Part shown: positions 4,327 through 23,414 of the stretch, one piece after another | Numbering within the stretch: position 1 is the stretch's first letter | How the letters are laid out: each line of letters starts with the position of its first letter | NCBI GenBank assembly: GCA_028282005.1 | Contig: JANQIV010000250.1 | Span: 1 to 43,508 of the forward strand | Length of the DNA stretch: 43,508 bases | Source: Melioribacteraceae bacterium | Lineage (GTDB): Bacteria > Bacteroidota > Ignavibacteria > Ignavibacteriales > Melioribacteraceae | Direction: 5' to 3' | Program-made: the position numbers and the translations under genes | The notes under the pieces: generated by a model | Databases searched by the model: none | What the model was told of the DNA's origin: nothing | Seen by the model: only the letters and a program-made list of their open reading frames with translations

Positions 4327-5292
4327 ATGCAGAAATTAAACATACTGCTAATTTTGCTTTCCGTTAATCTCGCCCTACTTCTGGGTAATATTATTGTTCC
4401 ACACTTTTCAAAGGAGGAGCCGGTTACTCCTCCTAAAAATCAAATTACCAACCTCGATAGTTTACTAATAATTGAGTTGTTTGAAAACGGACTTAAGGAA
4501 GAATGGATAGACGAAAGAATTACTTTTCAGAAAGAGCCATTTTATAACATAACTGTTCCTAATGATTTATCAATAACAACGCTTTTAAGAAACTTAAATC
4601 ACAAACTAAAAGACAGCAATCTTGAAGTTAAAACCAATGAACTTATTGAAAATGGAAAAACCAAATATGAGATTTTCGAAAATGAAGATCGTAAGTCATT
4701 ATATTTTTTCTTCTATGATGATTCTTTAGAAAGGGAATCAACAGAATTATCATTTTTGATTAGAGTTTCTAATGAAGAAAAGTTATCAACAGAATTGTTA
4801 AATGCAAGTATTCCGCTAACGTTTTTAATAAATATTCACGAAGGCGCTGACAGCATTATTGCACAAATATCTGAAAGCTCCCATAAATATTTTGTTTATT
4901 TGGATGATGAAATTGATGAAGAAAAATACGTTTTGAATTTAGAATTCAGTAAAATTCGCTTGAGGGCTATAGTAGAAAATATATGCAATGCTTTTGAGTA
5001 TTGTCAGTATTTTGTTATCGATAATAATTCTATTTTGGCCCGTTCAAATTTATTTGAGTTCATTGCAAAGGAATTCCGAAAGAGGAAGAGAAAAATCATA
5101 TTTGCAAATACATTCAAAGAAATTAATGGAAGTGAAATTCTAATTAAATCCGGATTCAATTATTACTTAGGCAATAATATAGAACTACACAAAATTATAA
5201 TTGATCAAAATAGTTTTTCCCTTTTAAGAAACGATATAGAAAAAAGTTTAAAGAAAGGCGATAAATACTACTTAATTGAAAAATCTCTTTAA
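4327..5292 (+). CDS. Membrane-anchored protein of unknown function
   Basis: This 321-residue protein has a single N-terminal hydrophobic helix (LNILLILLSVNLALLLGNII) and then a soluble domain on the outer side of the inner membrane. The central part (SFLIRVSNEEKL to IPLTFLINIHEGAD) resembles the opening strand pattern of divergent polysaccharide deacetylases (YibQ type). The expected DDxG and H motifs are not convincing, so I do not assign that function. It follows the crotonase by 11 bp. Its stop codon overlaps by 4 bp the stop of the convergent M16 peptidase gene. Confidence 0.55.
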   Translation: MQKLNILLILLSVNLALLLGNIIVPHFSKEEPVTPPKNQITNLDSLLIIELFENGLKEEWIDERITFQKEPFYNITVPNDLSITTLLRNLNHKLKDSNLEVKTNELIENGKTKYEIFENEDRKSLYFFFYDDSLERESTELSFLIRVSNEEKLSTELLNASIPLTFLINIHEGADSIIAQISESSHKYFVYLDDEIDEEKYVLNLEFSKIRLRAIVENICNAFEYCQYFVIDNNSILARSNLFEFIAKEFRKRKRKIIFANTFKEINGSEILIKSGFNYYLGNNIELHKIIIDQNSFSLLRNDIEKSLKKGDKYYLIEKSL

Positions 5293-14257: not shown

Positions 14258-14512
14258 ATGAAAAAGCTCAAATTGAATTTGAAAGACTTAAAAGTTGAGT
14301 CTTTTGAAACTGCTGATGAAGTAAGAGAAAAAAAAGGTACAATTCATGGAAATTTACCTTGGACCGAGACTTGTGACGGGCCTACATGTAATAATGATAC
14401 TTGTTGGGGAACATGTCCAATGAATACTCATTGTGTGCCAACATGTAGACAAACTTGCCCTATAGAACCAACTAACACATGTCTTCCAGGTGAATGGCCT
14501 TGCGGTTCTTAA
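14258..14512 (+). CDS. Lanthipeptide precursor peptide 1 (pinensin-like leader)
   Basis: This 84-residue peptide has the leader MKKLKLNLKDLKVESFET, shared almost exactly with the two other precursors. The L-x-L-x-DLKVESF pattern is that of pinensin-type class I lanthipeptide leaders from Bacteroidota. A short variable linker and KGTIHGNLP precede the core. The core has 9 Cys, seven of them in Thr-Cys pairs (ETC, PTC, DTC, GTC, PTC, QTC, NTC), plus a final PCGS. Thr should be dehydrated by the LanB pair and joined to Cys by LanC. GGAG lies upstream of the ATG. A tRNA-Glu-like gene begins 16 bp after the stop. Confidence 0.9.
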   Translation: MKKLKLNLKDLKVESFETADEVREKKGTIHGNLPWTETCDGPTCNNDTCWGTCPMNTHCVPTCRQTCPIEPTNTCLPGEWPCGS

Positions 14513-14528: not shown

Positions 14529-14599
14529 GGCGCGTTCGTCTAGTGGTAGGACGCCAGTTCTTCAGACTGGAAATGGTGGTTCAATTCCATCACGCGCTA
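14529..14599 (+). tRNA. tRNA-Glu-like gene 1, anticodon UUC, with C33
   Basis: A full cloverleaf folds. The acceptor stem is GGCGCGT/ACGCGCT (7 pairs, with G1-U72). The D arm is GTCT/GGAC with G18-G19. The anticodon stem CCAGT/ACTGG closes the loop TCTTCAG, so the anticodon is UUC at 14561-14563. The variable loop has 4 nt (no base 47, a Glu feature), and the T arm GGTGG/CCATC has loop TTCAATT. A73 is the discriminator base and CCA is not encoded. Position 33 is C, whereas nearly all elongator tRNAs have U33. It starts 16 bp after precursor 1, on the same strand. Confidence 0.9.
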
Positions 14600-14724: not shown

Positions 14725-17670
14725 TTGGCTGAACTCTTCTCAGGCTTTGTCTGCAGAGTTAGTGGCTCTGCAACTAATCATTTTAATAACTTAATTGCTT
14801 CAAAATCATTAGAGATACTTAAAAAAATCAAAGAAAAAGAAGAAGAAATCTCATCATTTAAAGAAGAGATATCAAGACAATTATTTGAAGAAATCTCTAA
14901 CAGTACAAAACAAGTAAATAAAAACAAATTACTCAAAATACGCAGGAAAGCATATAATTTAAAAAAGTTAAAAATAGAAGAACAGAATTTAATAAAAAAT
15001 AAAGACGTGTTTGGAAAGTATAAATTATTATTAACTGCAATTGATGCTAAGAAAGATTTATTGGATAAGTATTACGAAAGCTTTGATTCTGATTATGTGA
15101 GTATAAGAAAACAGTTCAAAGAAGTTATAAAAGAACAGGACTTTCAAAAAGGATTATTGATTTCAAGTAAAGCTTTGTATCAGAACCAGGATATTTATGA
15201 TAAATGTAATAAAACAACATTAAATAGAAAAGAAGAACAATTAGAGAGGGGGTTGCTCAGGTATTATTCTAGAATGAGCATGAAAGCAACACCTTTTGGC
15301 ACCTTTTGCTCAATATTACCTGGTGAGATTATTAATGAAAATAATAAATCAAATGAAATAGTTTTAACTCTTGACCCAACATTAAAGGAAAGCATTGTAA
15401 TAATAAACAAAGGCTTATATGGTAGTATTCTTAGTTACATTGTTAAGAAAAAAGAAATAAAGAAAAACCTTCCTGTAGAATTAAATCAAACCATTGTTAA
15501 TAAAGATGATAAGCTGGTATACTTAACTGCAATTGAAGAGAAAGAAATTTTTCAGCACTTAGATAATAATGAGGTTTTGGAACTCTTTGTTGAGAAATTG
15601 GAGAAATATGATTCTGTATTGTTTAATGATTTGATAAAATTGGTTTGTAGCTTCGAAGAACTTGAAGCCACTGAAGATGAGGCTGAAGAATATATTGATA
15701 AATTAGTTGAAATAGGATTTCTAAGGTTTAAGTTAAATATTCCTGAACAACTCGTTGATTGGGTAGCACCTCTTATTCAACTACTAAATGGAATAGATGA
15801 TCCAGATGCAGTACAAATCAAAGGCCTGCTATTAAACCTTCGCGTAAAAATTGAAGCATACGTTGATGCAGATGTAAAAAGGCGTCAGGAATTACTAATT
15901 GAAATGGATGATGAAGTTAAAAAACTTTTTGAGGATTTAACCATTGAATCTCAGTTAAAAGCAGATCTACCCTTCTATGAAGATGCTACTTCAAAAAGTA
16001 ACTTAATAATTAATGAAGAATATTTAGAATCTGCCTCTAACATATTTTCCGAACTTATAAAAATTACCCAAAAATCGGCGTTCCCAATTACTGATAGCAT
16101 TACAATGAGGCATTTTTACGATGAGCATTACAAAGAAAGTTCAGAGGAAATTTCTTTATTAAAGTTTTATGAAGATTACTACAGAGAACATTACAAAGAA
16201 CATATTGAAAAACAAAGGAAAATTCAGTCAAACCAAAAAGATGACACTCTAAAAGATTATGATGTAACAAATCCATTCAAATTGGATTCTGTTAAAAAAG
16301 TATTAAATGCTCCAAAACAATTCCGCAATCTTATCTCGAAAAAATGGATAAAGAATGGCGAAAATGAAATCCACATTACTTTGAAAGAAATTAAAGAATG
16401 CTACAAAGATATTCCTGAATTAGCAGATTCTTCTTGTTCAGCATCAGTTTTCTCACAAGTAATTTTGCAAAACGGCGGTGATCAAAAAGAAAGAATATTT
16501 ATTCCCGACGCAAAGTACTTGTTGGGCTATGGTAAATATTTTTCGAGATTCCTGAGACTAATGAGTGATGAAGTTCAAAGTAAACTTTATGATGAAAATA
16601 ACTCTATGTCAGATGAAATTATTGCGGAAATTAGTGGCGACGCAAATTTTAACGCAAATCTGCATCCACCGTTAGTAAAATATGAGATCAGTTACCCAAC
16701 AAGTGAAGTTGGTTTAGCAGAAAAACAAATTAAATGTGAGGATTTACTTGTTGTTCCCGATCCGCATAATAAGTTTACACTGAGATTAAAACAAAAAAGC
16801 AGTGGAAAATTTGTTCTGCCTGTCGATTTAGGATTTCTCAATCCGACAATGAGACCACCGCTATTTCAATTGATTGCGAAATTCACTCCCCCTTCAAACT
16901 ATTCACTAGCAATTCCGGATGTACCGGTAATTGATAACTTTGATAAAAATGGGAAAGAATTTAAAGAAAAAATTCAAACAAAAAGAAATAAAGCAGCACA
17001 GCAAATAGTTTTTCGACCACGAATAATTATTGAAGATCAAATTGTAGTTTCAAGAAAAAGCTGGATAATTCCTAAAAAGCATTTTCCGGAAATCGGAAAG
17101 AATGAATCCCTAGCAGACTATTTTATAAAATTAAATAATTGGCGTGAAGAAAATAATATACCAAAAGAAGTGTATCTCAGAATTAAACCATTGCCTTTGC
17201 CGCAGAAAGCAATGTCAGAAAACAAAGAGGATAATAACGAGAACGAAAATGTAAAAACAATTGCTGAGGATAAAAAAGAAGTAAATAATGAAAAAGAAGT
17301 GAAGGAAAAAGAAGAAGTAAATACTGAAAATCAGAACAAAGAAAATGAAGAATCGCAAGAGCAAAATACTGATGACAGTCAGGAGAAGAAAAAGACTAAA
17401 TTTCCAAAGCAATCAAGGGATTATTATAAACCCCAGTATATAAATTTCTTAAATCCGCTTTATGTAAATCTATTCGGAAAACTAACTGTCAATTTGCAAA
17501 ATTATTCTGTAACAATTGAAGAAAGATATCCGGCAGAAAACCAACTATTGTCATTTGATGGGAAGTATTTTGCAAATGAGCAGATCTTTCAAATAAACTT
17601 TCCGAAAAAAAATAATTCAAAATCTAAAAATGTTGTGGAGTTGGCAGATGCAGAAATTACAGGAAACTAA
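14725..17670 (+). CDS. lanB: Lantibiotic dehydratase, glutamylation protein (LanB N-terminal part)
   Basis: This protein transfers glutamate from glutamyl-tRNA(Glu) to Ser/Thr of the precursor. Its 981 residues show the family motif SRMSMKATPFGTFCS at about 182-196 and continue to the SWIIPKKHFPE and PKEVYLRIKP segments of the lantibiotic dehydratase N-terminal domain. The elimination (SpaB_C) domain is missing and encoded by the next gene, a split LanB as reported for pinensins. Residues ~831-895 form a Glu/Lys/Asn-rich insertion before the final YINFLNPLYVNLF strand. The start is TTG, supported by AGAGGTG 5 bp upstream and by an in-frame stop just before it. An unusually charged helical region lies at ~30-100. 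Confidence 0.93.
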   Translation: MAELFSGFVCRVSGSATNHFNNLIASKSLEILKKIKEKEEEISSFKEEISRQLFEEISNSTKQVNKNKLLKIRRKAYNLKKLKIEEQNLIKNKDVFGKYKLLLTAIDAKKDLLDKYYESFDSDYVSIRKQFKEVIKEQDFQKGLLISSKALYQNQDIYDKCNKTTLNRKEEQLERGLLRYYSRMSMKATPFGTFCSILPGEIINENNKSNEIVLTLDPTLKESIVIINKGLYGSILSYIVKKKEIKKNLPVELNQTIVNKDDKLVYLTAIEEKEIFQHLDNNEVLELFVEKLEKYDSVLFNDLIKLVCSFEELEATEDEAEEYIDKLVEIGFLRFKLNIPEQLVDWVAPLIQLLNGIDDPDAVQIKGLLLNLRVKIEAYVDADVKRRQELLIEMDDEVKKLFEDLTIESQLKADLPFYEDATSKSNLIINEEYLESASNIFSELIKITQKSAFPITDSITMRHFYDEHYKESSEEISLLKFYEDYYREHYKEHIEKQRKIQSNQKDDTLKDYDVTNPFKLDSVKKVLNAPKQFRNLISKKWIKNGENEIHITLKEIKECYKDIPELADSSCSASVFSQVILQNGGDQKERIFIPDAKYLLGYGKYFSRFLRLMSDEVQSKLYDENNSMSDEIIAEISGDANFNANLHPPLVKYEISYPTSEVGLAEKQIKCEDLLVVPDPHNKFTLRLKQKSSGKFVLPVDLGFLNPTMRPPLFQLIAKFTPPSNYSLAIPDVPVIDNFDKNGKEFKEKIQTKRNKAAQQIVFRPRIIIEDQIVVSRKSWIIPKKHFPEIGKNESLADYFIKLNNWREENNIPKEVYLRIKPLPLPQKAMSENKEDNNENENVKTIAEDKKEVNNEKEVKEKEEVNTENQNKENEESQEQNTDDSQEKKKTKFPKQSRDYYKPQYINFLNPLYVNLFGKLTVNLQNYSVTIEERYPAENQLLSFDGKYFANEQIFQINFPKKNNSKSKNVVELADAEITGN

Positions 17671-18637
17671 TAAGTGGGAAAGTGTACATATTTTTTTCAA
17701 AGGTGATATTTATTCATACGAATGTGACAGAATAATTTTAGAAGTTGTTTCTCCTTTCGTAAATGAGTGCTTTGATAAAAAAATGATAGAAAAATTTTTC
17801 TTTATCCGGTATTCTGAACTTGGCACGCATGTAAGGCTTAGATTTTGGGGCAAAGAAAAAAACTTGAATGATGAATTCAAGCGATGTTGTTGTGACTATA
17901 TTATTAACTCCATCCCAAAAGAACTAATCAACTATCCATTCAAAAAATTAAATACAATCACAGCAGACAAAATAGAAAAAGAGGACACACCTTATCTGTG
18001 GGTTCCCTATGAGCCTGAGATTGAAAGATATGGTGGTGATGAAGCAATATCTGTTGCTGAAGATTTCTTCTTTTATTCAAGTAATATCGTAATTGATTTA
18101 TTGAACAAAATTGAAAAAGGAAATAATTCTTCCAGGTTAGGTTTTGGCCTTATTTTAATGGTGATTAAGCTATTCAGTTTTTTTGAAGATATAGAGATTG
18201 TAAAGACAATCTTAAATTATTATTCAAAAGGGTATTTAAGTGCTAGAGTGCAAGATGAATCTGAAATTAAAAACATTCAGAATTTATTTGATAGTAGTTT
18301 TGAAAAACAGTCAGAGCACTTGGTTGAATATGTAAATACAATTTGGGAAGCACTAAGTGAAAAAACTGAGCTTGGAGAACCTTTTGACAGCTTTAAAGAT
18401 TATTGCAAGCAAATAAGAGCCCGCCTAGAAATTCTTGCAGAAGAAAATAAAATTATAAAACACAATCAGAAGATTGATGGGACTAAGAATTCACTTTCGA
18501 GAATTTTACCCAGCTATATACATATGACAAACAACAGAATGGGAATTACAATTCCTGAAGAAGCTTATCTCGCTCATATAATTGCACTCGCTTTTGATAA
18601 TTCACTAATTCAAACTAAAACTTATGGTGAACAATGA
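17648..18637 (+). CDS. LanB elimination-domain protein (SpaB_C / thiopeptide-type domain)
   Basis: This protein removes the glutamate from glutamylated Ser/Thr to give dehydroalanine/dehydrobutyrine. Its ~329 residues begin with KWESVHIFFKGD, followed by FFFIRYSELGTHVRLRFWG, the start signature of the SpaB_C domain (W-x-x-x-HIFF and RY...G.H.RLRF). The C-terminal SRILPSYIHMTNNRMGI also fits the family (S...HM..NR). I choose the ATG at 17648 because GGAG lies 7 bp upstream. An alternative ATG at 17630 adds six residues. It overlaps the glutamylation gene by 23 bp and the cyclase gene by 4 bp, so the three should be made together. Confidence 0.9.
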   Translation: MQKLQETNKWESVHIFFKGDIYSYECDRIILEVVSPFVNECFDKKMIEKFFFIRYSELGTHVRLRFWGKEKNLNDEFKRCCCDYIINSIPKELINYPFKKLNTITADKIEKEDTPYLWVPYEPEIERYGGDEAISVAEDFFFYSSNIVIDLLNKIEKGNNSSRLGFGLILMVIKLFSFFEDIEIVKTILNYYSKGYLSARVQDESEIKNIQNLFDSSFEKQSEHLVEYVNTIWEALSEKTELGEPFDSFKDYCKQIRARLEILAEENKIIKHNQKIDGTKNSLSRILPSYIHMTNNRMGITIPEEAYLAHIIALAFDNSLIQTKTYGEQ

Positions 18638-20925
18638 ATAAAGAAATATTAATAAACACCGCGGAAAAAATAGGAAACAGACTTATAAACAATGCCTTAT
18701 GGGAAGGCAATGAATGTACCTGGGAAGTAATGGCTCCAAATAGAGAGGATAGAAGTGCGAAATCTGCTGTTAAAGCTGTTGCCGATGCTGCAGTTTATCA
18801 GGGTGTGGCCGGAATAGTTTTGTATTTAGTGGAATTATTTAGGATTACAAATAATCCTAAAATTAAAGATTGCATAAATGGCGCTTTGGAATATTCATAC
18901 AGAATAGGTAAAGATATGTCAAATGCCTCTTTCGGTTTTCATAGCGGGAGGGTAGGCATTGCTTATGCTTTATTTAAGGCTGGTAGTTTATTTAATGATG
19001 ATAAATTGTTGAATAGATCCGTTGAAGTAATTACACCATTGTATGGAAATGCAAATTCAGATTTAGGGATAGATGTTATTGGTGGAGCAGGTGGGTCTAT
19101 TCAGCCTTTGTTGGTAATTTATGAGTCATTAAATGATGAGAGCATTCTTCAATTAGCTAAAGATCTCGGAGACAATTTAATTCATATTGCCAAAAAGGAA
19201 CAAGTTGGTTTTGCCTGGGGATTTTCGGATACAGATTTTAAAAGACTTTGTGGATATGCTCACGGAGTATCCGGAATTGGTCAAGCCCTACTTGAACTTT
19301 ATAATGTTACCGGTGAAGGGAAATATTTATACGGATTTGAGCAAACAATTGCTTATGAAAATCAATACTACAGTAATGAAAATTTAAATTGGCCGGATTT
19401 TCGGTATAGGCAAGTTAGTGAGTATGTTTATGAAGGAAGAATTGAACAATTAAAACAAGATTTAATAGCTGAAAAAATCCCCCCTTATAACTATAACTAC
19501 ATGTCTGCGTGGTGTCATGGTGCTCCAGGAATAGCATTAAATAGATTGAGAGCTTATGAACTGTTGCATAAAGAAGAATATAAAATTGACGCTATAAATT
19601 CTATTAAAGGAACTGCTCATTCGTTTTGTGAAAATCATAGAAATAACTATTCACTTTGTCATGGGAATGGAGGAAACTGTGAACCTTTGATTTATGGTTC
19701 ACAAGTTTTGAATAATTCAAAATATTATGAAGACGCATTTGAAATTGCAGTAAATGGAATTAAGAAATTCGAAGAAGCAAATGTGCCGTGGCCTTGCGGA
19801 ACAATGGGTTCAGTTTCAGATCCTAGTCTCATGCTCGGCGAAGCGGGCATCGGATATTATCTATTAAGGCTATACTCATCAGATGTCCCATCAGTATTGG
19901 TAATTTCAAGTACAAATAAAATAACCGCCGAATCAGAAGTTGATCAAAGTTACAATACCTTAAAAGAAGATCACATAAAATTTTACTTTGGTGATACTTT
20001 AGAAGGATTAAAGAAATTAAAATTAAATTTTGAATTTGAACTTGAAGATACTGCAAAATGCTACAGAGAAATCACAAACTTTCTTGAAAATCTTGATCCT
20101 GAAATTAAACAATATGCTGAAGATTTATTCCAAGTAGATAAAATTAGATTTCTAAAAACTATCGGAGTTTTTGATTATTCGGAAGAATATAGAGATAGTC
20201 TTATTAAAGAACCGCTTTTTGATATCTCATGGAAAACTTCACAATTTATGTTAGACCCTTTTTCAAAATTAATAGAATGCAAATATGATTGGCAAACTTA
20301 TTTTACTGAAGACGATGAATTAAATCTACCGAATGAAGAAGAGACTTATGTTTTATTGTTTAGAAAAAATAATACAATTCAAAAATCGGTAGTTGGTTCG
20401 CTTCCCGCATTAGTGTTATCCATTCTTAACTCTCCAAGTTCTTTGGAAGAAACTACACGAGAGGTATCAGAATATTTTGATGGTTCGGTTGATTTAAAAA
20501 TGCTTGAAGAAAAAGTCTTGGAACAAATTCAACAGTTCTATCAAGCCGGATTAATAAAGGTTATCAAACATGATGAGGATTTTGAAAAGTTAGTCTCAAA
20601 AATTTCCGATAACCTAAGTTTAGAATACGAAGATACACCTCATTACATTCAAGCTTTTCACAAAATTTTGCAAACAATAAGACACAGCAAAAGCATTTTT
20701 GAGAGTGAAGATGAATTAAATCGATTACATCAATATAGTATGCATATCTCTGATCTAAAGAGGTCATTAAACTTACTTAAGCTAGAAAAACCATTTGAAC
20801 AATTAATCAATAGATTTTTTGATTCTGAGGATATGATTTTGAAAGAGGTTTTATATAAAGAACTGATTTCTGAGCTTGAAATATCGTTTGGTTTTCAATT
20901 TGAATCTTTAGCAGTAAATCAATAA
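18634..20925 (+). CDS. lanC: LanC-type cyclase with ~340-residue C-terminal extension (RRE-like)
   Basis: The 763-residue protein is about 1.8 times the usual LanC length. Residues 1-425 are LanC-like: GYAHGVSGIGQ (His210), SAWCHGAPGIA (Cys294) and LCHGNGGN (Cys342-His343) supply the zinc ligands and catalytic His for thioether formation. The extension carries at ~565-648 a three-strand then helical pattern (EETYVLLFRK, then LPALVLSILNSPSSLEE, then FYQAGLIKVIK). It resembles a PqqD-type RiPP recognition element that could hold the leader. The region between is unrecognised, and a helical tail follows. It overlaps the upstream gene by 4 bp (ATGA). The LanC call is firm; the RRE call is inference. 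Confidence 0.9.
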   Translation: MNKEILINTAEKIGNRLINNALWEGNECTWEVMAPNREDRSAKSAVKAVADAAVYQGVAGIVLYLVELFRITNNPKIKDCINGALEYSYRIGKDMSNASFGFHSGRVGIAYALFKAGSLFNDDKLLNRSVEVITPLYGNANSDLGIDVIGGAGGSIQPLLVIYESLNDESILQLAKDLGDNLIHIAKKEQVGFAWGFSDTDFKRLCGYAHGVSGIGQALLELYNVTGEGKYLYGFEQTIAYENQYYSNENLNWPDFRYRQVSEYVYEGRIEQLKQDLIAEKIPPYNYNYMSAWCHGAPGIALNRLRAYELLHKEEYKIDAINSIKGTAHSFCENHRNNYSLCHGNGGNCEPLIYGSQVLNNSKYYEDAFEIAVNGIKKFEEANVPWPCGTMGSVSDPSLMLGEAGIGYYLLRLYSSDVPSVLVISSTNKITAESEVDQSYNTLKEDHIKFYFGDTLEGLKKLKLNFEFELEDTAKCYREITNFLENLDPEIKQYAEDLFQVDKIRFLKTIGVFDYSEEYRDSLIKEPLFDISWKTSQFMLDPFSKLIECKYDWQTYFTEDDELNLPNEEETYVLLFRKNNTIQKSVVGSLPALVLSILNSPSSLEETTREVSEYFDGSVDLKMLEEKVLEQIQQFYQAGLIKVIKHDEDFEKLVSKISDNLSLEYEDTPHYIQAFHKILQTIRHSKSIFESEDELNRLHQYSMHISDLKRSLNLLKLEKPFEQLINRFFDSEDMILKEVLYKELISELEISFGFQFESLAVNQ

Positions 20926-20939
20926 TTGGGCGGATTGTA

Positions 20940-21647
20940 ATGAATAATAAATCTGTTTTAGAAAATGAAACTGGTATCAATACTAATGACTTGCACTTAA
21001 AAATAGTAAATGATCTTACAAAAAAGTTGAAAACCAACTTCCCTAATGCCGGAATAGGGATATCAGGCTCAGTTGCAGCAAAAAAACATTCGAGGAAAAG
21101 TGATATTGATTTATTGCTGGTTGATAAAACCTTTAAAAAAAATAAACAGTTTACTTTCTTCAATTATGGTGTAGATATTAATCTTCTTTGTTTAAATCCT
21201 AACTTACTTGAGAATCAAATAAGTGTTTGGAGTTTTTTATTTAACTCACAGCATTTAGGCTATATAACCAGCGCAAATATAATTTTTGACCCAGAAAGCT
21301 CCCTTGGTGAACTGAAAGAAAAAACAAAAGAAATAATTATTCAAAGGAAATCTTCCGCACAACAAGTATTAATGATCGTAGAAGAACAAAAAGAAATAAT
21401 TATTAAAGAAATAGAAAACAATGGTTGTAACTGTTCAAAGTCTGTTGAACTGATTAACCTTCTTATTAGCCAATGGTTTTTGCTTGAAGGGATTTTGCTA
21501 AATAATAAGAGAGAACATCAGAATTCGTTTAATCTTATAAAAAAGTATGATTACAAAATGTACGAATCCTTGAAGCTGGCATTGTTGCAATCAATTAAAA
21601 ATGAGGAAGTTTTGAATCACATTGAAACCCATTTGCAAAAGAAATGA
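20940..21647 (+). CDS. Nucleotidyltransferase-fold protein in the lanthipeptide cluster
   Basis: This 235-residue protein shows the nucleotidyltransferase core motif GISGSVAAKKHSRKSDIDLL at about residues 40-59. That gives GS and the DxD metal-binding pair, with a third acidic residue in YGVDINLL near 76. All three carboxylates of an active enzyme are therefore present. The C-terminal half is helical. Related folds adenylylate small molecules or proteins, or add nucleotides to RNA ends; the sequence does not tell which. It starts 14 bp after lanC with GGGCGG-like spacing and precedes the second peptide-tRNA cassette. Given the tRNA genes without CCA, an action on tRNA is one testable idea. 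Confidence 0.8.
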   Translation: MNNKSVLENETGINTNDLHLKIVNDLTKKLKTNFPNAGIGISGSVAAKKHSRKSDIDLLLVDKTFKKNKQFTFFNYGVDINLLCLNPNLLENQISVWSFLFNSQHLGYITSANIIFDPESSLGELKEKTKEIIIQRKSSAQQVLMIVEEQKEIIIKEIENNGCNCSKSVELINLLISQWFLLEGILLNNKREHQNSFNLIKKYDYKMYESLKLALLQSIKNEEVLNHIETHLQKK

Positions 21648-21696
21648 AAGCAAATTATTAGGACTTTGAGCAAAATCGTATATAAAAGTATTGTGT

Positions 21697-21760
21697 TAAG
21701 TAAAAAATAGTTGATAAAGGGGCTGTGCTGACAGCCTAATAACCAACTAAAAACAAATAA
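21697..21760 (+). promoter_or_regulatory. Hairpin in the leader of the second precursor gene
   Basis: GGCTGT (21721-21726) pairs with ACAGCC (21731-21736) around the tetraloop GCTG. Flanking GTTG and CAAC can extend the stem with an internal loop. It is the most GC-rich spot in this AT-rich gap and lies about 36 bp upstream of precursor 2. There is no T-run after it, so it is more likely an mRNA 5' structure or processing site than a terminator. Confidence 0.4.
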
Positions 21761-21772
21761 AAAGAGGTTTTT

Positions 21773-22099
21773 ATGAAAAAGCTAAAACTTGATTTGAAAG
21801 ATTTGAAAGTTGAATCTTTCGAAGCAGTAACACTAAGGAATATTAAAAAAGGAACTGTAGCTGCTAATGCGCCATTGACAGAAGGTTGTCCGCCTACAGA
21901 TGGTCAAACATGCCCGAACACTTGCTATAATACTTGTGCAAACACATGTGCAAATACATGTGGCGGAACTTGCCCAAATAATACTTGTGCTAATACTTGT
22001 CCTGATACTTGTTGGCCTGAAACTCAAGCTGAATGCGATCCTGATACTTATGCAACATGTCAAGACCCGACATATTGCGGATCATGGTTATGTAGTTAA
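21773..22099 (+). CDS. Lanthipeptide precursor peptide 2 with NTC-repeat core
   Basis: This 108-residue peptide has the leader MKKLKLDLKDLKVESFEA, then KKGTVAANAPLTEG. The core has 14 Cys, ten of them in Thr-Cys pairs. Its centre is a near-regular run of NTC units (QTCPNTCYNTCANTCANTC) followed by more GTC/NTC/DTC units, and it ends GSWLCS. The spacing suggests nested or ladder-like methyllanthionine rings between a dehydrated Thr of one unit and a Cys of another. GAGG lies upstream of the ATG. A tRNA-Glu-like gene starts 9 bp after the stop. Confidence 0.9.
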   Translation: MKKLKLDLKDLKVESFEAVTLRNIKKGTVAANAPLTEGCPPTDGQTCPNTCYNTCANTCANTCGGTCPNNTCANTCPDTCWPETQAECDPDTYATCQDPTYCGSWLCS

Positions 22100-22108
22100 T
22101 CAACTACG

Positions 22109-22180
22109 GGCGCGTTCGTCTAGCGGCCAGGACGTCAGTTCTTCAGACTGGAAACAGTGGTTCGAATCCACTGCGCGCTA
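22109..22180 (+). tRNA. tRNA-Glu-like gene 2, anticodon UUC, with C33
   Basis: The acceptor stem is GGCGCGT/GCGCGCT (G1-U72 and U7-G66 wobble pairs). The D arm is GTCT/GGAC with loop AGCGGCCA. The anticodon stem TCAGT/ACTGG closes the same loop, TCTTCAG, as copy 1, giving UUC at 22142-22144 and C33. The variable loop is 4 nt. The T arm AGTGG/CCACT has a standard TTCGAAT loop. A73 is present; the next bases are CAG, so CCA is not encoded. It starts 9 bp after precursor 2 on the same strand. Confidence 0.9.
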
Positions 22181-22235
22181 CAGGTTAAAATTATAACAAA
22201 GTGTAGTTGAAGTAAATCCAGAAATATTTTGCCAA

Positions 22236-22946
22236 ATGAACATAAATGATAACTATAAAAAGTATCGAGAAGATACTATAAACATTGAAGGCATTCCTTA
22301 CCCAATTTATGATGGTGGTTTGAGATTTTTTGAGCAGACAAGAAGAATAAAAAAATGGCCTATCAATAACGGTGATTTAGTTGTTGATGTTGGATGCGGC
22401 CATTTACCATTTCCATATGCTACCATATTACTTGACAAAGATATGAAAGATGGCAAAGAAAGGTTTTACTTTCCAATTCCGCATGATGAAAGACAGTTAA
22501 TAGAAGCTGATATTGAACAAGGATTACCATTTAAAAATAAAGAAATAGACTTTTTGTATTGCAGTCATACACTTGAACACTGCAATGACCCGGGATTTGT
22601 AATTAGCGAAATAGAAAGAGTAGCTAAAAGAGGTTTTATAGAAACTCCAAATTTAATATTTGAAATTCTCTTTGGTGGAAATGATGACACTCATAAATGG
22701 GTTACAGATTACTGTGAAGATTCTGATGTTTTGAATTTCAGGAAACTTAAGAGAAAAGAATTATCAGCAATTAAAAGAAGAAAAGAATTAGGGAATGTCA
22801 TTTATAAATTATTTAAGGATAATGAAAAACCTTTTAGGCTTCACCTAACAGCATATTGGAAAAACCAGGATGTTTTCACTGAATGTTTTTTGTGGGAAGA
22901 TAAAATAAATTTTAATGTTGTTAAAGAGGGGGTGCTTAGCTATTAA
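22236..22946 (+). CDS. Class I SAM-dependent methyltransferase
   Basis: This 236-residue protein has the SAM-binding motif LVVDVGCGHLPFP near residues 48-60. The following segments are IEADIEQGLPFKNKEIDFLY near 87-106 and SHTLEHCNDPGFVISEIERV near 108-127, typical of Methyltransf_11-type folds. It lies between cassettes 2 and 3, 55 bp after tRNA 2 and 41 bp before precursor 3. It may methylate the lanthipeptide (N-terminus, C-terminus or side chain) or another molecule. Substrate cannot be read from the sequence, and a tRNA substrate is also conceivable. Confidence 0.85.
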   Translation: MNINDNYKKYREDTINIEGIPYPIYDGGLRFFEQTRRIKKWPINNGDLVVDVGCGHLPFPYATILLDKDMKDGKERFYFPIPHDERQLIEADIEQGLPFKNKEIDFLYCSHTLEHCNDPGFVISEIERVAKRGFIETPNLIFEILFGGNDDTHKWVTDYCEDSDVLNFRKLKRKELSAIKRRKELGNVIYKLFKDNEKPFRLHLTAYWKNQDVFTECFLWEDKINFNVVKEGVLSY

Positions 22947-22987
22947 GCAACCGGACTAATAATAACAAAAAACTAAAGGAGGCTTTT

Positions 22988-23257
22988 ATGAAAAAGCTAA
23001 AATTAAACTTGGAAGACTTGAAAGTTGAGTCTTTTGAAATCAATAATTCTAAAAACATGAAAGGTACCGTTAATGGCAATTTACCACCTCAATGTGATGA
23101 CAATTCTGGCGGTGGCGGCGGTGGCGGTGGCAGCTTGACAGGAGGGTGTACTTGCTTGGGGAATTCTTGCGGATATAGTAGATGTCCTGAAATGTGTGTA
23201 TCACAATACACTGATTGTGGTTCATGCCCGACAGAATGCGGTTATCCTTGTGTTTGA
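22988..23257 (+). CDS. Lanthipeptide precursor peptide 3 with polyglycine stretch
   Basis: This 89-residue peptide has the leader MKKLKLNLEDLKVESFEI and the shared MKGTVNGNLPP segment. The core differs from the other two: eight consecutive Gly (23107-23130 region), then SLTGGCTCLGNSCGYSRCPE and a Cys-rich end, with about 10 Cys in total. Unlike cores 1 and 2, only one Thr-Cys pair is present and Ser is as common as Thr, so both lanthionine and methyllanthionine are possible. AAAGGAGG lies 7 bp before the ATG. A tRNA-Glu-like gene starts 18 bp after the stop. Confidence 0.88.
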   Translation: MKKLKLNLEDLKVESFEINNSKNMKGTVNGNLPPQCDDNSGGGGGGGGSLTGGCTCLGNSCGYSRCPEMCVSQYTDCGSCPTECGYPCV

Positions 23258-23275
23258 TTGACAGATAAAATCTTT

Positions 23276-23348
23276 GGCGCGTTCGTCTAGTGGCTTAGGA
23301 CGTCCCGTCTTTAGCGGGGAAACAGTGGTTCGAATCCACTGCGCGCTA
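23276..23348 (+). tRNA. tRNA-Glu-like gene 3 with UUU anticodon and C33
   Basis: The body matches copy 2: acceptor GGCGCGT/GCGCGCT with U72, D arm GTCT/GGAC, T arm AGTGG/CCACT with TTCGAAT loop, 4-nt variable loop, A73 and no CCA. The anticodon stem is TCCCG/CGGGG (U27-G43) and the loop is TCTTTAG. The anticodon is thus UUU at 23310-23312, again with C33. A tRNA finder may label it Lys by anticodon, but the body is of the Glu type. It starts 18 bp after precursor 3 and 66 bp before the ABC exporter gene. Confidence 0.85.
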
Positions 23349-23414
23349 CAAAATTAATAAAATAGTTAAAAATCCAAAGATAAAAACTAATAATAATTGT
23401 AAATTACAGTAATT

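Follow-up and report, generated by a model that had tools for sequence, protein, structure and literature searches.

The window analyzed here, a stretch of 43,508 nucleotides in its full length, carries a class I, pinensin-type lanthipeptide cluster with a split LanB and with LanC, in which each of the three precursor genes is followed by a tRNA gene. With slightly better than even probability, these cassette tRNAs are dedicated, non-ribosomal glutamyl donors for LanB, and the third copy, which has a Glu body and the Lys anticodon UUU, would tolerate U36 since decoding has been given up. The cluster contains three precursors, the split LanB, a LanC-like cyclase, a nucleotidyltransferase, a methyltransferase, an ABC exporter, an adaptor, and a subtilase; the tRNA genes lie on the same strand as the precursor genes, 16, 9, and 18 nt behind the stop codon in cassettes 1 to 3. 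The features are as follows:

14258..14512, + strand: precursor 1, 84 aa, pinensin leader NF038180, 16 nt 5' of tRNA 1
14529..14599, + strand: cassette tRNA 1, Glu(UUC), C33
14725..17670, + strand: LanB glutamylation protein, Lant_dehydr_N (Pfam PF04738, 2.8e-39), predicted glutamyl-tRNA user
17630..18637, + strand: LanB elimination protein, Lant_dehydr_C / thiopep_ocin (PF14028), actual start probably further in
18634..20925, + strand: LanC-like cyclase with C-terminal extension (PF05147, 8e-59)
20940..21647, + strand: nucleotidyltransferase, Pol-beta type (ANT/HalB-like), conserved in one relative's cluster
21773..22099, + strand: precursor 2, 108 aa, TC-rich core, 9 nt 5' of tRNA 2
22109..22180, + strand: cassette tRNA 2, Glu(UUC), C33
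22236..22946, + strand: methyltransferase-like protein, between cassettes 2 and 3
22988..23257, + strand: precursor 3, 89 aa, pinensin-type leader, Cys-rich core with Gly tract, stop codon 18 nt 5' of tRNA 3
23276..23348, + strand: cassette tRNA 3, Glu body, anticodon UUU at 23310-23312, C33 at 23309, A73 at 23348, CCA not encoded
23415..25211, + strand: ABC exporter, directly 3' of tRNA 3, order kept in both relatives
25208..26386, + strand: HlyD-like adaptor
26389..27192, + strand: subtilase, candidate leader protease

In class I lanthipeptide biosynthesis, Glu is placed onto Ser/Thr, a second LanB protein performs the elimination, and LanC forms the rings. The window encodes the glutamylation (PF04738) and elimination (PF14028) domains on separate proteins, and the glutamylation protein resembles the solved dehydratase 6ec7/6ec8. 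The pinensin leader model NF038180 was matched above its cut-off by precursors 1 and 3; no match with this NCBIfam model was reported for precursor 2, the leader of which resembles those of the other two. Precursor 3 has a single TC dipeptide as compared to 7 and 10 in precursors 1 and 2, and its core is still rich in Ser/Thr and Cys. This core is opened by a run of eight glycine codons (23100-23140) absent from the other precursors. The nucleotidyltransferase gene (20940-21647) sits between LanC and precursor 2, and the GS...DxD motif of the protein is intact. A 37% identical protein is encoded in the cluster of one relative (G385), and none in the tRNA-less clusters of the class. The structure predicted for it has low confidence (pLDDT 61) and suggests no more than a relation to ANT/HalB-like enzymes; the protein might act on the cassette tRNAs.

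Copy 3 was called as tRNA-Lys(ttt) at 23276-23349 by ARAGORN and matched Rfam RF00005 at 45.1 bits (cut-off 29); with these two calls and helices free of mismatches, a chance tRNA-like match is ruled out. The body of copy 3 is of the Glu type. The Glu D-arm determinants U11-A24, U13-G22:A46, and the absence of base 47 are all present, the variable loop consists of four bases, and A37 and A73 are in place. Sequence identity amounts to 86% with cassette copy 2, 72% with the cellular Glu(UUC), and 58% with the cellular Lys tRNA, which bears out the initial annotation of a Glu body with a UUU anticodon. A normal tRNA-Lys is ruled out by C33, G38, and the Glu body.

The same annotation had described copy 3 as sharing acceptor, D arm, and T arm with copy 2 and differing in the anticodon stem-loop. 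Acceptor stem, D stem, and T arm are indeed identical; in the D loop, there are C-to-T changes and one additional base. Within the anticodon stem, three of the five pairs are swapped on both sides (A-U, G-C, and U-A in copy 2; C-G, C-G, and G-C in copy 3), and the loop has a single change at base 36 (C to U), as U32 C33 U34 U35 and A37 G38 are common to both copies; the described difference is thus correct for three stem pairs and U36 and does not extend to the rest of the loop. Differences between the two copies affect 7 of 17 positions of the anticodon arm vs 2 of 55 elsewhere (Fisher p = 4e-4). Borrowing of the arm from another tRNA was rejected, as no matching arm occurs in the 23 other tRNAs read from the genome. 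C33 proved to be a genuine departure: all 23 non-cassette tRNAs read from the source genome, including the cellular Glu(UUC) and Lys(UUU), have U33. The tRNA list of this genome comprises 26 matches and is incomplete, and no cellular Glu(CUC) tRNA is among the matches listed.

When 395 genomes from the phylum were searched for the pinensin leader, two further genomes had a leader gene adjoining a tRNA-Glu gene, both from the same family and from other genera (locus L083 from G385 and locus L084 from G031). All three cassette-bearing genomes are draft assemblies. Gene order in the relatives is as in the window, with a tRNA directly before the same ABC/HlyD/protease genes. The window has three cassette tRNAs, G385 one (UUC), and G031 two (CUC), giving six over three genera, each separated by 4-22 nt from the gene before it. 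The counterpart of copy 3 by position, immediately ahead of the ABC exporter gene, has the anticodon UUC in G385 and CUC in G031. The UUU copy is not conserved in these relatives, and U36 is therefore most simply a lineage-specific change. LanB was not found in G031, the contig of which starts at precursor 1. CCA follows A73 in both G031 cassette tRNA genes (L084:347-423 and 4726-4801) but is not encoded in the window and G385 cassettes. Between precursor 2 and tRNA 2 of G031 lies a gene for a 661-aa protein (L084:2736-4721) that by eye is S41-type (tail-specific) peptidase-like.

Further searches were carried out with patterns including C33. A narrow pattern gave zero matches in 84,980 species genomes, and a looser one gave 28 stretches: two with the cassettes of the relatives, seven other C33 Glu-like tRNAs, and a remainder that is not tRNA-Glu. 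No further cassette was found with the loose pattern in 79 family genomes or in the 84,980 species genomes, and none in the viral contigs searched. The seven other C33 Glu-like tRNAs (L049, L052, L053, L057, L063, L074, L075) lie mostly in long tRNA arrays; their hosts include a Pseudomonas plasmid, Planctomycetota, Lachnospiraceae, and Streptosporangiaceae. C33 by itself is therefore rare, not unique. Pinensin-leader matches in a further genome (G283) had neither LanB nor a cassette nearby, and in six genomes of the same class the stretches read around distant pinensin-like LanB-type clusters contained no tRNA and no nucleotidyltransferase gene.

The six cassette tRNAs were compared with each other and with cellular tRNA-Glu. 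All six have the acceptor stem GCGCGU, the block from G2-C71 through G6-C67, U72, and A73, and the anticodon-loop bases U32, C33, U35, and A37. The Glu D stem is mostly constant, with U11-A24 and U13.G22 in each of them. The anticodon is UUC, CUC, or UUU; position 34 is U or C, C36 occurs in five of the six, and U36 only in copy 3. Four of the five anticodon-stem pairs vary on both sides and no broken pair was found in 30 cells, so that the fold is kept while the sequence is free. Base 38 is G in five cassettes and A in one and can pair with U32 in all of them; this U32/R38 pair (23308-23314 in window copy 3; U.G five times, U-A once) leaves an anticodon loop of five bases. Pair 51-63 is never G-C (U-A in four cassettes, mismatched as C.C and G.A in two), U51-A63 being known in ordinary tRNAs as well; U33 and G51-C63 are found throughout the cellular tRNA-Glu sampled from these three genomes. 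The cell's Glu(UUC) has C72. The cellular Glu(CUC) tRNAs of G385 and G031 have the acceptors GGCGTGT and GGCGCAT, G1.U72, and D arms nearly identical to those of the cassettes. By sequence, these cellular tRNAs look ancestral to the cassette tRNAs, which would thus be duplicates of tRNA-Glu(CUC). A constant acceptor block together with a varied, paired anticodon arm is the pattern that would be expected under selection by LanB and GluRS, not by codons. The suggestion that copy 3 is drifting because its anticodon is free agrees with the varied anticodons and the unconserved U36; drift does not extend to the fold, C33, U35, A37, A73, the Glu D arm, and the acceptor stem, all of which are kept.

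Almost all tRNAs have U at position 33, and translation drops markedly when this base is mutated (PMC3664417). Pair 51-63 is one of three T-stem pairs setting the affinity for EF-Tu (PMC11231383) and is also altered in staphylococcal cell-wall tRNAs-Gly (PMC9976931). C33, the loss of G-C at 51-63, and a 32-38 pair that would narrow the loop all argue against decoding, and the cassette tRNAs look retired from protein synthesis. The initial annotation had proposed a tRNA not used by the ribosome on the basis of C33; this gains support from C33 in six of six cassettes, in three genera and inside lanthipeptide clusters, and from the lost G51-C63. It had also warned that Glu placed at Lys codons would be harmful. 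For the t6A modification, U36A37A38 is required, and the bacterial enzyme is hindered by C33 (PMC9654439). A decoding-competent Lys loop has U33 and U36A37A38; copy 3 has C33 and U36A37G38, is therefore expected to read Lys codons poorly, and such harm is unlikely.

Apparently, the determinants for charging of copy 3 are mixed. Class I LysRS requires G2.U71; since the source genome has class II LysRS and no class I enzyme, this requirement cannot exclude charging with Lys. When compared with the determinants listed in PMC9976931, copy 3 has the complete class II LysRS set (U34, U35, U36, and A73). From the Glu set of the anticodon loop it retains U34, U35, and A37, with U36 in place of C36, a base that contributes strongly to Glu identity in E. 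coli (PMC9976931); the weak acceptor-stem determinants G1-C72 and U2-A71 are missing from copy 3 and from the other cassettes. GlnRS is present in the genome, and the one GluRS detected retains the equivalent of Arg358 of discriminating GluRS; a non-discriminating GluRS that ignores base 36 was rejected on these grounds, bearing in mind that the same Arg change was without effect in H. pylori GluRS1 (PMC3927822). With C36 lost and a single GluRS of this kind next to GlnRS, reduced glutamylation of copy 3 is plausible. The sequence is compatible with charging by Glu, Lys, or both; on balance, copy 3 probably remains a glutamyl donor, possibly a weaker one.

The mechanism we propose is as follows. 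Each cassette tRNA would be co-transcribed with its precursor gene, processed, and provided with CCA. The only GluRS detected in the cell would charge it with Glu, and LanB would recognize the acceptor stem GCGCGU together with U72 and A73 and load Glu onto Ser/Thr residues of the precursor; the LanB elimination protein would then remove Glu, and LanC would close the rings. MibB reportedly reads U72 and A73. LanB enzymes pick tRNA-Glu, even among isoacceptors, via the acceptor stem (PMC9993889; PMC10877564). C33, the 32-38 pair, and the altered 51-63 pair may keep the cassette tRNAs off EF-Tu and the ribosome. With decoding gone, positions 34 and 36 would be relaxed and copy 3 could have acquired U36, a one-base change tolerated because no codon needs to be read. 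The precursor-tRNA layout, which occurs three times in the window and in two more genera, supports dedicated donors; the restriction of the cassette to three genomes and the distant pinensin-like clusters of the class without a tRNA gene count against them.

Alternatively, the class II LysRS could put Lys on copy 3, which would then be idle or a competitor rejected by LanB for not carrying Glu, with copies 1 and 2 supplying Glu for all three precursors. UUU and A73 form the class II Lys set (PMC9976931), the matching enzyme is the only LysRS class present, and copy 3 is the sole cassette without C36. We nevertheless consider this unlikely, as the Glu-type body is only 58% identical to the cellular Lys tRNA, a natural Lys loop has neither C33 nor G38, and a useless Lys-charged copy would not be expected to retain C33, A73, and a perfect fold. 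Copy 3 might instead be a functionless duplicate in decay, with UUU as the first sign. Against this, all helices are paired, the three stem-pair changes are compensated without exception, every cassette-specific feature is kept, and the position beside the ABC exporter is kept across genera. Decay is thus quite improbable, even though U36 is absent from the positional counterparts and the core of precursor 3, with its one TC, is atypical too.

A lower probability still is given to the tRNA-like elements acting mainly as RNA structure, as a processing site or stable 3' end of the precursor mRNA and not as donors. The short gap behind the preceding gene in all six cassettes and the lack of a terminator-like site in 20900-23500 would suit such a role, which leaves unexplained the Glu determinants, the constant acceptor stem, A73, and the link to an enzyme using tRNA-Glu. 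The initial annotation also considered that copy 3 may be charged with another amino acid for a different modification of precursor 3. Here, Lys or another amino acid would be added to precursor 3 by a cluster enzyme, and U36 and an unusual core do coincide in the third cassette of the window; we found little room for this idea, because only one LanB glutamylation protein is encoded and the scan of the cluster proteins showed no further obvious user of aminoacyl-tRNA, precursor 3 shares the ordinary pinensin leader and has a core rich in Ser, Thr, and Cys, and the counterparts in the relatives retain the Glu anticodons UUC and CUC. It is equally improbable that LanB or a partner uses Lys-charged copy 3 on precursor 3, so that the paired tRNA decides the modifying amino acid. 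Least probable of all is an ordinary translation tRNA, for Lys or Glu, located here by accident. ARAGORN does call copy 3 a tRNA-Lys, but C33 at a base that is nearly always U and whose mutation cuts translation (PMC3664417), G38, a body of the other specificity, the repeated linkage to the cluster, and a normal Lys(UUU) tRNA gene elsewhere in the genome all speak against it.

The window cluster shares the leader family, split LanB_N/LanB_C, LanC, and Ser/Thr/Cys cores with pinensin-type class I clusters (NF038180; PMC7268733), and it includes tRNA genes, which are missing from the stretches read around other pinensin-like clusters of the class. NisB, MibB, and TbtB, like the window LanB as predicted, use a glutamyl-tRNA donor whose acceptor stem decides its use (PMC9993889, PMC10877564); these systems rely on the cell's translation tRNA-Glu, whereas the window cluster seems to supply tRNAs of its own, which carry non-ribosomal features. 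Dedicated tRNA-Gly copies that escape EF-Tu, with changes including pair 51-63, are known from staphylococcal cell-wall pentaglycine synthesis (PMC9976931), and the cassette tRNAs may be similar in this respect. Unlike these tRNAs, the cassettes have Glu identity, C33, a site behind RiPP precursors, and one copy with an anticodon departed from its amino acid. LanB-related enzymes of related fold read acceptor stem and anticodon arm (PMC12550832); in contrast to their systems, the window has no scaffold peptide or second LanB_N, and its LanB_N is accompanied by an elimination protein and LanC. A PEARL is recognized as a LanB-like enzyme without an elimination partner together with a scaffold peptide; in the window, the elimination protein is adjacent. 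In the open-access literature searched, we found no report of tRNA genes belonging to a RiPP cluster and none of a RiPP-cluster tRNA with an anticodon departed from its amino acid.

If cassette tRNAs are dedicated donors, a peptide-antibiotic pathway would separate its tRNA supply from translation by means of its own tRNA genes, and the UUU copy would be a natural test of which tRNA traits are kept or lost once no codon constrains them. The choice of tRNA by LanB and the separation of Glu-tRNA pools for translation and modification would become directly testable. Furthermore, cassette tRNAs would be useful for peptide production in other hosts, where a tRNA-Glu mismatch is a known bottleneck (PMC9993889).
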